Below the pieces are notes generated by a model. It saw only the letters and a program-made list of their open reading frames with translations, was not told the DNA's origin and did no database searches. Positions 28,291 to 32,009 of a stretch of 64,000 bases of DNA are shown here, piece by piece; the first letter of the stretch is position 1, and the number at the start of each line of letters is the position of its first letter. The stretch lies in the NCBI GenBank assembly GCA_947471565.1, contig CANIVT010000002.1, positions 62,001-126,000 on the forward strand. The letters run 5' to 3'. The DNA is from Spartobacteria bacterium (GTDB taxonomy: Bacteria; Verrucomicrobiota; Verrucomicrobiia; Chthoniobacterales; UBA6821). A program made the position numbers and the translations under genes.

Positions 28291-28371
28291 TTTTGAGTTC
28301 TAGCGTCGTTGCCCTGCGCTTGCAGTATGTCTCATACAGCAGCGCTTGGGCGCCTAGCTATCTCCTCAAAA
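28291..28371. repeat. Large imperfect hairpin after gyrA
   Basis: TTTTGAG (28291-28297) pairs with CTCAAAA (28365-28371). The centre is GTATG-TCT-CATAC (28325-28337), flanked by further complementary GC pieces including CCC/GGG. Starting nine bases after the gyrA stop, it may act as a terminator or RNA-stability element. A similarly built hairpin follows the FKBP gene at 55623. Confidence 0.55.
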
Positions 28372-28493
28372 TACCGTCGCCTTATAAGGCTGAGTTGCCT
28401 CAGTTCCTCTAAAGAGCTTTGTTTTTCAGATAGAGGAGGAGGTCTTAAACCCAAAATTTGCATTTGGAGCTCTTCTTGCGAGTGAGGTTAAGG

Positions 28494-28611
28494 GGTTAAA
28501 ATGGTTAGAACCGTTACAAGGTTAAAAAGTTGCCGAACGGCTAATCTGGCAACGATGAAGGGTATGATCTCAGACACTTTTTAACTTTCTAACTTTTTCA
28601 CGTTTTAACTC
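28494..28611. repeat. Long inverted repeat of GTTAxAA units (copy 1)
   Basis: The left arm (28494-28536) consists of near-tandem units GTTAAAA, GTTAGAA, GTTACAA and GTTAAAAA. The right arm (28575-28611) carries the reverse complements (TTTTTAACTTTCTAAC, then CGTTTTAAC). The same architecture recurs at 58082-58215 and 60062-60236. It lies in the 544-base spacer between gyrA and rpsR, which otherwise holds the gyrA hairpin, a CTCCGCG-type periodic stretch at 28707-28750 and a terminator; no gene was seen. Confidence 0.6.
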
Positions 28612-28706
28612 CGCACGGTCTCACCATGCTGGTGAAGCCTCCGAATCTGTAAACACCCTTTGATTGCAAAATCTGGGTTAAATCCCATACATTTTCATCC
28701 CCTTCA

Positions 28707-28750
28707 TCTCTGTGAATTTCTCCGCGCCTCCGCGTCTCCGCGCGAAACCT
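28707..28750. repeat. Short periodic CTCCGCG repeat
   Basis: The stretch TCTCTGTGAATTTCTCCGCG then CCTCCGCGTCTCCGCGCGAA is built from drifting copies of an octamer-like unit (CTCCGCGc/t). A related stretch with CTCTGCGATCTCTGCG lies at 63422-63440 and ends with TTCCGCGCGAGAAA at 63526. Such periodic spacer repeats are known from several GC-rich bacterial groups; no function is assigned. Confidence 0.45.
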
Positions 28751-28773
28751 TTCCCGCCCGCCTTCCACACCAA

Positions 28774-28803
28774 AAGAAAAGGCGACCCGGGAGGGTCGCC
28801 TTT
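28774..28803 (-). terminator. Rho-independent terminator of the L33-S18 operon
   Basis: AAAGGCGACCC (28778-28788) and GGGTCGCCTTT (28793-28803) form an 11-bp stem with a four-base loop. On the minus strand the stem leads into TTTTCTTTT, a U-rich tract. It lies 23 bases beyond the rpsR stop. Confidence 0.88.
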
Positions 28804-28826
28804 CGGTGACGAGCTAAAGTCTCCGC

Positions 28827-29069
28827 TTACTTCATCAGCAGGGAGGCGCGGGAGCGCTTGATCTCCTTGGTGATTTTGCGGTGAATGTGGGCGGCTACCC
28901 CGGTCATGCGGCGGGGAAGGATCTTGCCGGCCTCGGTCGTGAATTTCTTCAGCAGCTCGGGGTTCTTGTAGTCGATCGCCTCAGTGGAGATGTCCAACCG
29001 GCGGCGGGGCATCATGCGGTTCGCCTTGCGGAAATTGCGGCTGCGCTGCGGGGTCTTGGGTGTGCTCAT
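28827..29069 (-). CDS. rpsR: Ribosomal protein S18
   Basis: The 80-residue protein contains the S18 core IDYKNPELLKKFTTEAGKIL followed by PRRMTG and the basic end HIHRKITKEIKRSRASLL. S18 binds S6 and the platform of the 30S subunit. It lacks the Cys residues of zinc-binding forms. It is the last gene of a minus-strand group after rpmG, with a terminator downstream. In many bacteria S18 lies between S6 and L9; here L9 is 23 kb away beside dnaB, so the usual cluster is broken up. Confidence 0.96.
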   Translation of the reverse strand: MSTPKTPQRSRNFRKANRMMPRRRLDISTEAIDYKNPELLKKFTTEAGKILPRRMTGVAAHIHRKITKEIKRSRASLLMK

Positions 29070-29096
29070 GGTAGAAAAGCGGTGAAGTTGCGTCCC

Positions 29097-29270
29097 TTAC
29101 TTGGTCTCGCGGTGGAGGGTATGGCGCTTGAGGTTGGGATTGTACTTCTTCTTTTCAAGGCGGCCCGGGGTGTTGAGGCTTTTCTTGTTACGGGTCGAGA
29201 TGTAACGGGAGACCGGCTTGCCTTCGGCAACGGCTTCGGTGCACTCGAGGATAATGATGTCGCGTGGCAT
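29097..29270 (-). CDS. rpmG: Ribosomal protein L33
   Basis: A short gene of 57 codons plus stop encodes [20 protein letters not shown], then [20 protein letters not shown] and a basic end [17 protein letters not shown]. The motif RYISTRNKK...RLEKKKYNP is diagnostic of L33. There is only one Cys, so it is the zinc-free form. It lies 27 bases upstream of rpsR and 24 bases downstream of the DksA-like gene on the same strand, so the three are likely co-expressed. Confidence 0.95.
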
Positions 29271-29294
29271 GGGAAATGTCGGTTGGTGTCGGTG

Positions 29295-30134
29295 TTAGCT
29301 TTCGGTGGTCTCTTCCTCTTCGGTCTCGCCCTCTTCCTCTTCGGTTAGGCCGAACAGGGAGTTGATCTGGGGACGGACGCTGTGGTGGTGCTGGCGCTTT
29401 TCCAGCTCTGCCTGGCAGTCCACCGTATAGCGGGTGAAGGGAAGGGCTTCGAGGCGGTCGTGCTTGATCGGTTTTTGGCAGAGCTCGCAGACGCCGTAGG
29501 TTCCATCCTCGATCCTTTTCAGGGCCTCGTCAATCTCATAGAGGGATCCCTGCTCCTTGGAGAGCATGCTGAGGGCGAAATCGCGGTCGTACGCGTCGCT
29601 GCCGGCGTCTGCTTGGTGCATGCCGAAAGCAGAGGTCTCGCTGCCGGCATGGAGGTTGCCGCGGGCCACGCCGCTCATGGAGTCAAGGAGCATGTCCTTG
29701 AGGTCGAGGAGGCGCTTGTGCTGCTTGGTCAGAAAAGGGGTGAGCTTCAGGTTCTTGTTGACCTTGGGCTTCTGCACGAACTGCTGGGCTAGGACGCGGC
29801 TGTTGGAGGAACTGGCGACCGCCTTCTTGGCGGGAGCCTTTTTGACAACCGCTTTCTTGGCGGGGGCTGCGGCCTTGACCGGAGCTTTCTTTGCAGGGGC
29901 CTTGACCTTGGGAGTGGGCTTTTTGGGCGTCGCTTTCTTTGCAACGGGCTTGGAAACCTTCTTAACCGGAGCCTTTTTTGGAACCGGCTTCTTGGCCACC
30001 TCTTTCGCTTTAGCTTTATTAACGACGGGCTTGGAGGCTTTCTTGGCAGGAGCCTTCTTCACCGGTTTGGAGGCCTGTTTGACGGGCTTCTTGGCGGCTT
30101 TTGCAGGAGCTTTTTTGGCGGGTTTCTTGGCCAT
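29295..30134 (-). CDS. DksA/TraR-type zinc-finger protein with histone-H1-like N-terminal tail
   Basis: This 279-residue protein has two unlike parts. Residues 1-108 are a Lys/Ala/Pro-rich tail with repeated PAKKAP and KKPV units, like histone H1 tails, and should bind nucleic acid. Residues about 130-250 resemble DksA/TraR: a helical coiled-coil region (LTKQHKRLLDLKDMLLDSMS, then SLYEIDEALKRIEDGTYGVC) and the finger CELCQKPIKHDRLEALPFTR to VDCQAE. Only Cys216, Cys219 and Cys240 are present; the fourth ligand position is Glu243. The C-terminus is acidic (EEEEGETEEEETTES). DksA proteins tune RNA polymerase with ppGpp, often at ribosomal genes, and this gene precedes rpmG and rpsR. Whether it acts on polymerase, DNA or both is inference. 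Confidence 0.85.
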   Translation of the reverse strand: MAKKPAKKAPAKAAKKPVKQASKPVKKAPAKKASKPVVNKAKAKEVAKKPVPKKAPVKKVSKPVAKKATPKKPTPKVKAPAKKAPVKAAAPAKKAVVKKAPAKKAVASSSNSRVLAQQFVQKPKVNKNLKLTPFLTKQHKRLLDLKDMLLDSMSGVARGNLHAGSETSAFGMHQADAGSDAYDRDFALSMLSKEQGSLYEIDEALKRIEDGTYGVCELCQKPIKHDRLEALPFTRYTVDCQAELEKRQHHHSVRPQINSLFGLTEEEEGETEEEETTES

Positions 30135-30234
30135 GGGGCTGGGAAAAATCGGGTTTTTGTTCTCTAGGGGGATTTTTGGGGGAGGGGCTTGTTACCCCTC
30201 CCCACGACATCCCGCAAGAGAAATCGCTCGGAAT

Positions 30235-30684
30235 TCAGCGCCTTCCGCCGCAAACGAGCAGGCTTGCCAGTAGTCCCAGACGAAAACTCCAGAGCAGGGT
30301 ACGGATCCAGTTGGTCGCAACGAGTCTGCGGATGGCAGCCTCATCATGACGCTTTTCCAGCAATCCGTGGAGTGGGACTTGGATCAGGAAGGTGCTGCCC
30401 CAGATCAGGGCAAGGGATCCCAAGGTTGCCAGATAGGTGTGGGTGAAGGCGAGGGGAGCACCGAGCAGGGGGAGGGCGGCCGCGGTAGCCAATTCGAGGA
30501 TCATCAACGGGGCGACCACCCAGCCGGTCCGGACCGTGTGGGCCTGCTCGTAGCGGGTGAACCCATCGCTAGGGATCCTGCCAAAGAGAGGGTAATGGAC
30601 GATCTGAACAAACCAGATGATGCCGGTCATCAGAGCGGTGGCTGTGAACTGGATCAGCAGGAGGGCATTGGGCGAGGGAATCAT
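30235..30684 (-). CDS. Four-helix membrane protein of unknown function
   Basis: The 149-residue protein has four hydrophobic segments: ALLLIQFTATALMTGIIWFV (about 7-26), VVAPLMILELATAAALPLL (about 56-74), YLATLGSLALIWGSTFLIQV (about 84-103) and TLLWSFRLGLLASLLVC (about 128-145). Between the first two is a polar stretch with a conserved-looking WFVQIVHYPLF motif. It resembles a family of small membrane proteins that I cannot name with confidence. It lies upstream of the DksA-like gene on the same strand (100-base gap) and diverges from hisS. Confidence 0.72.
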   Translation of the reverse strand: MIPSPNALLLIQFTATALMTGIIWFVQIVHYPLFGRIPSDGFTRYEQAHTVRTGWVVAPLMILELATAAALPLLGAPLAFTHTYLATLGSLALIWGSTFLIQVPLHGLLEKRHDEAAIRRLVATNWIRTLLWSFRLGLLASLLVCGGRR

Positions 30685-30758
30685 CAGCTTTGAAGGTATC
30701 CGCTGGATCGGTGATTGTAGAGTGAAGACCGCTTCCCTAAGATCTTCGATTTACGACC

Positions 30759-32009
30759 ATGCAACCCCTTCCCGGCTTCCGCGACCTCTATCCAAGGGAT
30801 TTCGCGCGCCGGAATTATCTGACCGGCCGATGGAGGGAGACCGCGCGCCGATATGGATTCGTCGAGTTTGACGGCCCGACGCTGGAACCGACCGACCTTT
30901 ATCGCAAGAAGAACAGCGGCGGGGAAATCCTCGGCCAACTTTACGAGTTCACCGATAAGGGAGCGCGCGACGTTTCGCTCCGTCCCGAGGTGACCCCCAC
31001 GCTGGCCCGTATGATCGCCGCGCGGCACAGGGATTTTCCAAAGCCCCTACGCTGGTTCAATGTCGGCACCTGTTTCCGTTACGAGCGCCAGCAGAGGGGT
31101 CGCCTGCGCGAATTCCTACAGTTTAACTGCGACCTCGTCGGTGACGCGTCACCGGCTGCTGATGCCGAGGTAGTGGCCCTTCTGATCGATCTGCTCCGCT
31201 CCTTCGGGCTCACGGAGCAGGATTTTGCCATTCGGCTCAGTGATCGTTCCGCCTGGCAGAGCTTCATGGCGGGTCACGGGGTGGCCCAAGAGCAGACGGG
31301 GGAATTTCTTCAGATCGTCGACCGGATGGAGAAGATGCCGGAGGAGAAGACCACCGCCCTCCTGGCTCCTTTTGGCGTGCCGCTGGCCACCGTGAAGGAC
31401 TTCATTGAGAAGGCCGAGATTCCGGCGCTTGAGCCGTTGCTCGCCGATCTCGAAGCGCGTGGCCTGCGGTCGTTCGTTCGCCCGGACCTCGGAGTGGTCC
31501 GAGGGCTCGCCTACTACACGGGCGTGGTATTCGAGGCCTTTGCCCTGCATGGAGGCCTGCGCGCCATTGCCGGGGGCGGCCGCTACGATCGCCTGCTCTC
31601 TGATCTGAGCGACGGTCAGGCCGATCTTCCTGCCGTGGGCTTCGGCATGGGTGATGCCGTCCTGCTCGAACTGCTGGGAGAATGTCCTTCCGCCAAGGCT
31701 CGAGAGCAGGCCGCCCTTAAGGCGGATGCCGCCGTCCAGCTCTATCTCGTGATCGCCTCTGAGGAACACCGTGCCGAGGCGTTGGGCTTAGCCCAGCTAC
31801 TCCGAGAGTCTGGATGGCGCGTGGCCTACCCTCTTGCAGAGGAAAAAGTCGGAAAGCAGTTCGGTGCCGCCGAATCCTCCGGAGCCACGCACGCTATTGT
31901 CGTCGGTTCGGAGTGGCCGACGCTCAAGGTCAAGCGACTTGCCGACCGCCACGAGGAATCAGTTCCGCGTGATTCCATCCTCCCTTGGTTGGCAAACTCC
32001 CGTTCCTAG
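30759..32009 (+). CDS. hisS: Histidyl-tRNA synthetase
   Basis: The 416-residue protein charges tRNA-His. Class II motifs are clear: motif 2 CFRYERQQRGRLREFLQFN, the histidine-binding signature VRGLAYYTGVVFEA and motif 3 GGGRYDRLLSDL. The last 95 residues (from LYLVIASEEHRAEALGLAQL) are the anticodon-binding domain, so this is HisS and not the catalytic paralogue HisZ. It starts with the first Met of the family (QPLPGFRDLYP). aspS follows 50 bases later, a common pairing. Confidence 0.95.
   Translation: MQPLPGFRDLYPRDFARRNYLTGRWRETARRYGFVEFDGPTLEPTDLYRKKNSGGEILGQLYEFTDKGARDVSLRPEVTPTLARMIAARHRDFPKPLRWFNVGTCFRYERQQRGRLREFLQFNCDLVGDASPAADAEVVALLIDLLRSFGLTEQDFAIRLSDRSAWQSFMAGHGVAQEQTGEFLQIVDRMEKMPEEKTTALLAPFGVPLATVKDFIEKAEIPALEPLLADLEARGLRSFVRPDLGVVRGLAYYTGVVFEAFALHGGLRAIAGGGRYDRLLSDLSDGQADLPAVGFGMGDAVLLELLGECPSAKAREQAALKADAAVQLYLVIASEEHRAEALGLAQLLRESGWRVAYPLAEEKVGKQFGAAESSGATHAIVVGSEWPTLKVKRLADRHEESVPRDSILPWLANSRS

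Follow-up and report, generated by a model that had tools for sequence, protein, structure and literature searches.

The window analysed here, a stretch of 64,000 nucleotides from a Spartobacteria bacterium, encodes a protein of 279 amino acids in which a histone H1-like N-terminal tail is joined to a core of the DksA fold. Judged by its sequence, the protein is a variant of the known DksA/TraR family, and such tails recur in Verrucomicrobiota. With moderate confidence, and by analogy, we propose that it acts as a ppGpp-independent factor of the RNA polymerase secondary channel whose tail tethers it to nucleic acid, a plan analogous to that of CarD, with binding to RNA polymerase and DNA predicted from the fold and the composition. 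The fusion of an H1-like tail to a fold known to bind RNA polymerase, noticed in a sequence-only reading of this DNA, turned out to be real and to recur across the phylum (73 of 116 loci).

Gene and genome setting

The open reading frame is the first of three genes on the same strand, in the order dksA-rpmG-rpsR, and its position directly upstream of the two ribosomal protein genes, as claimed in the sequence-only reading, was confirmed. The features of the region are as follows.

29295 to 30134, minus strand: dksA-like gene, 279 aa, with a PF01258 match and the DksA fold
29811 to 30134, minus strand: N-terminal H1-like tail, residues 1-108 (39 K, 28 A, 17 P, net +38; no DNA tandem repeat)
29505 to 29738, minus strand: coiled coil, residues 133-210, with tip motif H-Q-A-D-A-G (AlphaFold2 helices and alignment)
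29409 to 29504, minus strand: zinc-finger-type domain, residues 211-242, with ligand positions C-C-T-C at Cys216, Cys219, Thr237 and Cys240 (Pfam and alignment)
29298 to 29372, minus strand: C-terminal segment, residues 255-279, the SLFGLT motif followed by an acidic tail, net -10 (composition and LFG conservation)
29097 to 29270, minus strand: rpmG (L33), first gene 3' of the dksA-like gene (ORF list and synteny)
28827 to 29069, minus strand: rpsR (S18) (ORF list and synteny)
28777 to 28804, minus strand: terminator-like hairpin 3' of rpsR, a 12-pair stem followed by a T-rich run, a plausible operon end

The hairpin is taken as a plausible operon end at most, since terminator-like sites in the region are no more frequent than in shuffles. 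No sigma-70-type promoter was found in 28300-30800, where 0.6 would be expected by chance; such a search is uninformative in Verrucomicrobiota. The source genome (2.28 Mb, 46 contigs, 97% complete) has a single PF01258 protein, the product of this gene, and also encodes GreA, PPK1 and PPK2.

Surveyed loci and conservation of gene order

A profile of the core alone (A1), built from 17 of 18 representatives after the truncated sequence L071 was left out, has a match in 276 of 288 Verrucomicrobiota genomes, on which the survey was centred, and in 36 of 38 relatives. In two relatives there is a second, divergent DksA-like match (G317:C89:4809-5228 and G296:C19:4182-4619). From the loci found via the core, 116 were hand-picked, with at least one per family where a place was listed, rather than drawn at random: 16 from the window's order, 44 from the rest of its class and 56 from other classes. 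Families f18, f23, f34 and f60 matched the profile yet were left out of this set. For each ORF the most upstream ATG served as the start, and the four ORFs that run off the contig at the N-terminus were counted as tail-less. A set of 81 close sequences consists of the best 80 of 250 loci and the window's own gene; its query included the tail and it is biased to tailed proteins, and its best 80 share some genomes with the 16 order loci. One locus with a 94% identical protein, L002 (RFPR01000023.1), is titled Proteobacteria bacterium, and this MAG is probably mis-titled. Counts of character changes come from a tree of 118 rows and 112 columns in which 24 of 115 inner branches are starred, so they are rough, and independent-pairs tests on this weak tree gave no signal either way.

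L33 and S18 lie directly 3' of dksA in all 16 order loci and in 16 of the 44 loci from the rest of the class, five more of which have S18 alone. In a phmmer search that used the L33 and S18 of the window as queries and may miss divergent ones, neither gene was found next to dksA in the remaining 23 or in any of the 56 loci outside the class. Association with ribosomal protein genes is thus a lineage-specific trait.

A core with the DksA fold

The window protein scores 37.8 bits against PF01258 (zf-dskA_traR), above the gathering cut-off of 24.9; CarD_CdnL_TRCF (PF02559) is absent from its four Pfam matches up to an E-value of 1. The best NCBIfam match is TIGR02890, the model of Bacillus YteA-type DksA-like proteins, with 82.7 bits, which is below the family cut-off of 134.4. 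The scores for the dksA equivalog models also lie below their cut-offs (TIGR02420, 50.2 vs. 115.5; NF033459, 61.9 vs. 105).

An AlphaFold2 model of residues 124-279, which does not include the tail, has a pLDDT of 74, with values below 50 in the acidic end. The modelled core superimposes on E. coli DksA (1TJL) with a Z score of 12.7 and an rmsd of 1.9 over 119 aligned residues. The top four fold matches in the PDB are all DksA or DksA2, namely E. coli DksA, P. aeruginosa DksA2 and two complexes of E. coli RNA polymerase with DksA (Z 12.4-12.7), and the fifth is C. trachomatis DksA (Z 9.9). Matches other than DksA are helical hairpins with Z of 9.5 or less; being below the DksA rows, with Z <10, they were treated as chance. 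The nearest solved chain by sequence is 6PTG, the chlamydial DksA (6.1e-17). According to the model, the core adopts the DksA fold, with a coiled coil and a globular domain, in agreement with the coiled coil and finger recognised in the sequence-only reading.

In E. coli DksA the tip of the coiled coil carries the motif D71-x-x-D74-x-A76, in which A76 is important. The corresponding residues of the window protein are H-x-x-D-x-G, and the proposed comparison with the DksA tip thus gave a divided answer: Asp74 is kept, but D71 is replaced by His and A76 by Gly. Position 74 is Asp in 97 of the 116 loci and Glu in 19, all of the latter outside the window's class, and position 76 is Gly in 108. Binding of the protein in the secondary channel of RNA polymerase and control of rRNA promoters may be expected on the basis of the modelled fold.

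Zinc-ligand positions

The cysteines of the window protein are residues 216, 219 and 240. In the alignment with E. coli DksA they retain Cys114, Cys117 and Cys138, and the third ligand, Cys135, corresponds to Thr237, so the four zinc-binding cysteines of the E. coli type are replaced by C-C-T-C. The claim that three of four Cys are present is correct; the Glu that had been placed at the fourth position was a misalignment and is ruled out by the E. coli alignment. All 16 same-order loci have Thr at position 135. This makes the loss of the ligand a lineage trait, not one peculiar to the window's gene, and rules out sequence error or lineage noise as its explanation.

The 81 close sequences (the window's own gene and the best 80 of 250 loci) divide into 65 with C-S-T-C, 15 with C-C-T-C and one with C-T-T-C. 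Seven further loci of the same family comprise five of the window's genus, all C-C-T-C, and two of a sister genus, both C-S-T-C. Since the window's own genus differs here from its sister genus and from most close sequences, the Cys at the second position seems, from the distribution of these forms, to have been regained in the genus, rather than just one Cys having been lost. Elsewhere in the class, C-T-S-G, C-T-S-A and similar forms are frequent, and outside the class all four Cys are kept in 40 of 56 loci. It is likely that four Cys represent the older state, with loss in the window's class and some other families; the ligand state changes eight times on the weak tree. Absence of ligands is compatible with the fold: DksA2 of P. 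aeruginosa has a degenerate finger with two Cys and no zinc (PMC9213440), hence the DksA fold does not need four zinc Cys.

The basic N-terminal tail

Residues 1-108 contain 39 Lys, 28 Ala, 17 Pro, one Glu and no Asp, with a net charge of +38, which bears out the earlier description of a PAKKAP-type tail of about 108 residues. The tail has the Lys-, Ala- and Pro-rich, acid-poor composition of H1-like and HC2 proteins; the Pfam HC2 model gives a weak compositional match of 14.6 bits against a gathering cut-off of 40. Lysine reaches a density of nine in 20 residues with no run longer than two. No tandem or slippage repeat was found in the DNA over the tail, and its codons are mixed. With the tail as a query, no second H1-like gene was found in the source genome at E <=0.001, low-complexity queries being able to miss relatives.

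For the survey, a tail was defined as 40 consecutive residues before the core that include 10 or more Lys and no more than two acidic residues. It is present in 73 of the 116 loci (order, 10 of 16; remainder of the class, 33 of 44; other classes, 30 of 56), and other thresholds give 63 to 84. As a control, a stretch of this kind occurs in none of the 42 other window genes and in two of the 239 genes flanking the 116 loci, which places the tail above chance. One of these two is the frameshifted tail of the dksA of L191 itself, which, when counted in, brings the total to 74 of 116. The K-rich ORF of L191 is read in a different frame from the DksA core, because of either an assembly error in the repeat or a real frameshift.

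The tail is absent or not basic in 42-43 of the 116 loci, including six of the 16 in the order, where several lineages have short, neutral or even acidic N-terminal extensions; the length of the pre-core region among relatives ranges from 9 to 359 residues. On the poorly resolved tree the tail state changes about 25 times. It follows from this distribution that the tail is not strictly required. It accompanies both types of finger, being found in 22 of 41 four-Cys loci and in 51 of 75 loci with a degenerate finger. In the 12 nearest sequences among the matches listed, mean identity is 0.56 before the core vs. 0.88 in the core, and the pre-core region has 82-157 residues with 24-33% Lys and at most four acidic residues.

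The check on homologues proposed in the sequence-only reading therefore had a mixed result: the tail is widespread, but some relatives lack it, and close homologues mostly have two Cys, distant ones four. Such relatives had been named as a sign of lineage noise or sequence error; judged by its distribution, the tail occurs too often and is too closely tied to this gene for either to account for it. It is common in Verrucomicrobiota, not universal. No description of a tailed DksA was found in the titles and abstracts of the open-licence literature.

The acidic C-terminal segment

The strongly acidic C-terminus noted from the sequence is confirmed by a net charge of -10 over residues 255-279. 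Measured from LFG to the end, 73 of 97 sequences from the order and from near relatives have a net charge of -9 (the mean is -9.1, and values run from -12 to -7); the 97 are the best 80 of 250 loci, the window's own gene and the 16 order loci, with some overlap, and L088 and L013 share a C-terminus. The charge of the C-terminal end is not related to that of the N-terminal tail (Spearman -0.09, p 0.36, n=96, partly non-independent, the truncated L071 being dropped): in 19 of the 96 sequences the tail charge is +5 or less, and all 19 keep a C-terminal charge of -9. In the set of 116, both the basic tail and the acidic end are present in 10 loci of the order, 28 of the rest of the class and four others. 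The acidic end occurs without the basic tail in six, 11 and four loci, respectively, and the basic tail without the acidic end in none, five and 26.

The acidic end is preceded by SLFGLT, a motif that hardly varies within the order: all 81 close sequences (the window's own gene and the best 80 of 250 loci) and all 16 order loci contain LFG. With VFG counted too, the motif is found in the set of 116 in all four loci of family f10, in five of 11 of f9, in none of the 29 other class loci and in none of the 56 outside the class. As the two ends vary independently, the acidic end looks like a separate class-level module with a role of its own.

DksA in the near absence of ppGpp synthetases

DksA is known mainly as a partner of ppGpp. 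RelA_SpoT (PF04607) is absent from the source genome according to a search that was positive in 11 of 14 known control genomes. The domain was found in 15 of 288 Verrucomicrobiota genomes (absent in 273) and in three of 117 genomes of the order (absent in 114), which agrees with the reported absence of RSH from PVC bacteria (PMC3153485). The few matches of the phylum are mostly in frames of 320-390 aa, with two in frames of about 900 aa; the length of the shorter frames suggests small alarmone synthetases or toxic kin, not long Rel.

In E. coli DksA, residues R91, K98, R129 and K139 are reported to form ppGpp site 2 (PMC7676912). They correspond to K, E, L and Q in the window protein, and across the 116 loci K98 is Lys in one, R129 is Arg in nine and K139 is Lys in 25. 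Because RelA/SpoT is absent from the source genome and from most of the phylum and most site-2 residues are changed, a stringent role of the ppGpp type, as the sequence-only reading had proposed, is unlikely for this protein.

Comparison with known systems

With E. coli DksA (1TJL) the window protein shares PF01258, the coiled coil with the globular domain, and the tip Asp74. It differs in having Thr at 135, Gly at 76 and E, L and Q in place of K98, R129 and K139; in addition, E. coli DksA has 151 residues and neither the long basic N-terminal tail nor the acidic C-terminal tail. C. trachomatis DksA (6PTG) is similar in its tip motif HQADxGxD, in its degenerate zinc ligands and in coming from an organism described as lacking ppGpp synthesis (PMC10995303). 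However, the deposited chain of 132 residues is too short for a long N-terminal tail, and its ligand letters are C-S-T-S. P. aeruginosa DksA2 (4IJJ) has the same fold (Z 12.4), but its chain of 129-136 residues carries no H1-like tail, and it is a zinc-starvation paralogue, whereas the window protein has three Cys and is the only copy in its genome.

A parallel in overall plan is CarD of Myxococcus, in which a module that binds RNA polymerase is described as joined to an acidic stretch and to a disordered, basic tail; the basic domain binds DNA, and histone H1 or its tail can take its place (PMC8156234). Unlike the window protein, CarD has an unrelated RNA polymerase-binding domain and a C-terminal tail with AT hooks, and its homologues are reported to be restricted to myxobacteria (PMC8156234). 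AlgP and other bacterial H1-like proteins with KPAA tails, as well as chlamydial HC2, are similar to the window tail in Lys, Ala and Pro composition, but the window tail falls below the HC2 cut-off and is joined to a DksA core.

Proposed mode of action and alternative explanations

Taking the plan of CarD together with the reported binding of KPAA-repeat peptides to DNA (PMC9239181), we regard the tail as a probable tether that is non-specific for polyanions, on a DksA that would work independently of ppGpp. The core would enter the secondary channel of RNA polymerase and tune initiation without ppGpp, at promoters such as those of rRNA and ribosomal protein genes. The basic tail, emerging where the first coiled-coil helix begins, would bind DNA (or RNA) non-specifically and thereby hold the factor and its polymerase at the nucleoid, its composition mattering rather than its sequence. 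The acidic segment with SLFGLT would be a separate module. Points against this explanation are the loci whose tail is missing or not basic, the Gly in place of A76, and the failure of chlamydial DksA to complement E. coli dksA, as stated in a review (PMC10995303).

Of the alternatives, binding of the tail to polyphosphate, or to ribosomal or nascent RNA, instead of DNA, so that starvation polyphosphate moves the factor off or onto its target, is one that we hold to be improbable. The source genome has PPK1 and PPK2 without RSH, AlgP with its KPAA-repeat H1-like tail is reported on polyphosphate granules (PMC9239181), lysine-rich stretches of EngA and SrmB are reported to bind polyphosphate (PMC12077175), and the two ribosomal protein genes directly 3' of the dksA-like gene fit a polyphosphate or RNA target. 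On the other hand, proteins modified by polyphosphate are described as having at least three consecutive Lys (PMC12077175), and the window tail has no run longer than two. Slightly less probable in our estimate is a near-neutral origin, in which low-complexity sequence grows and shrinks and is tolerated since the N-terminus of DksA is free. The range of pre-core lengths, the roughly 25 changes of tail state and the neutral or acidic extensions of some relatives are in its favour. The mixed codons and the lack of a DNA tandem repeat in the window tail speak against it, as do a composition kept while the sequence diverges and the near absence of comparable tails from neighbouring genes (0 of 42 and 2 of 239).

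The fold-back of the acidic segment onto the basic tail, suggested in the sequence-only reading and here considered as an autoinhibition of DNA binding, is weakened by the data and appears quite improbable. It draws on the electrostatics of RNA polymerase delta, whose long-range contacts are said in a review to influence transcription (PMC9136928), and on the co-occurrence of basic tail and acidic end in 38 of 60 class loci, order included. Nevertheless, the acidic charge is independent of the basic one, sequences with little tail charge keep it in full, outside the class the acidic end is missing from 26 of the 30 loci with a basic tail, and AlphaFold2, in a model without the tail, gives the acidic segment no confident place. 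Least probable by far, and very improbable in absolute terms, is a classical ppGpp-dependent stringent-response factor: the DksA fold and the ribosomal protein gene neighbours would suit it, but RelA/SpoT is missing from the source genome and nearly all of the order and the phylum, PVC bacteria are reported without RSH (PMC3153485), and the site-2 residues are mostly changed, with Lys at position 98 in one locus of 116.

The reading of the protein as a tethered, ppGpp-independent factor gains interest from its setting: almost the whole phylum keeps DksA (276 of 288 genomes) nearly without a ppGpp synthetase (15 of 288), often with an H1-like tail (73 of 116 loci). A more speculative extension, which we think doubtful, is that growth-rate control in Verrucomicrobiota is free of ppGpp and that DksA there is a chromatin protein whose H1-like tail replaces the alarmone, so that the state of the nucleoid or the level of polyanions, through a tie to the nucleoid or to polyphosphate, would set its action on RNA polymerase. 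In Verrucomicrobiota it becomes possible to test the role of DksA in the absence of ppGpp, and to ask if a polymerase factor can be made nucleoid-bound by a generic basic tail, as in CarD. Transposon mutagenesis on a large scale is reported for one cultivable relative, Verrucomicrobium spinosum (PMC12283558). The answer may bear on chlamydial DksA, which is described as retained without ppGpp synthesis (PMC10995303). The GreA domain of the source genome (L218, G000:C1:104259-104483) forms the C-terminal end of a 641-aa open frame with an N-terminal extension of several hundred residues, and this extended protein can be likened to the oversized GreA of 715 aa described in C. trachomatis (PMC10995303).
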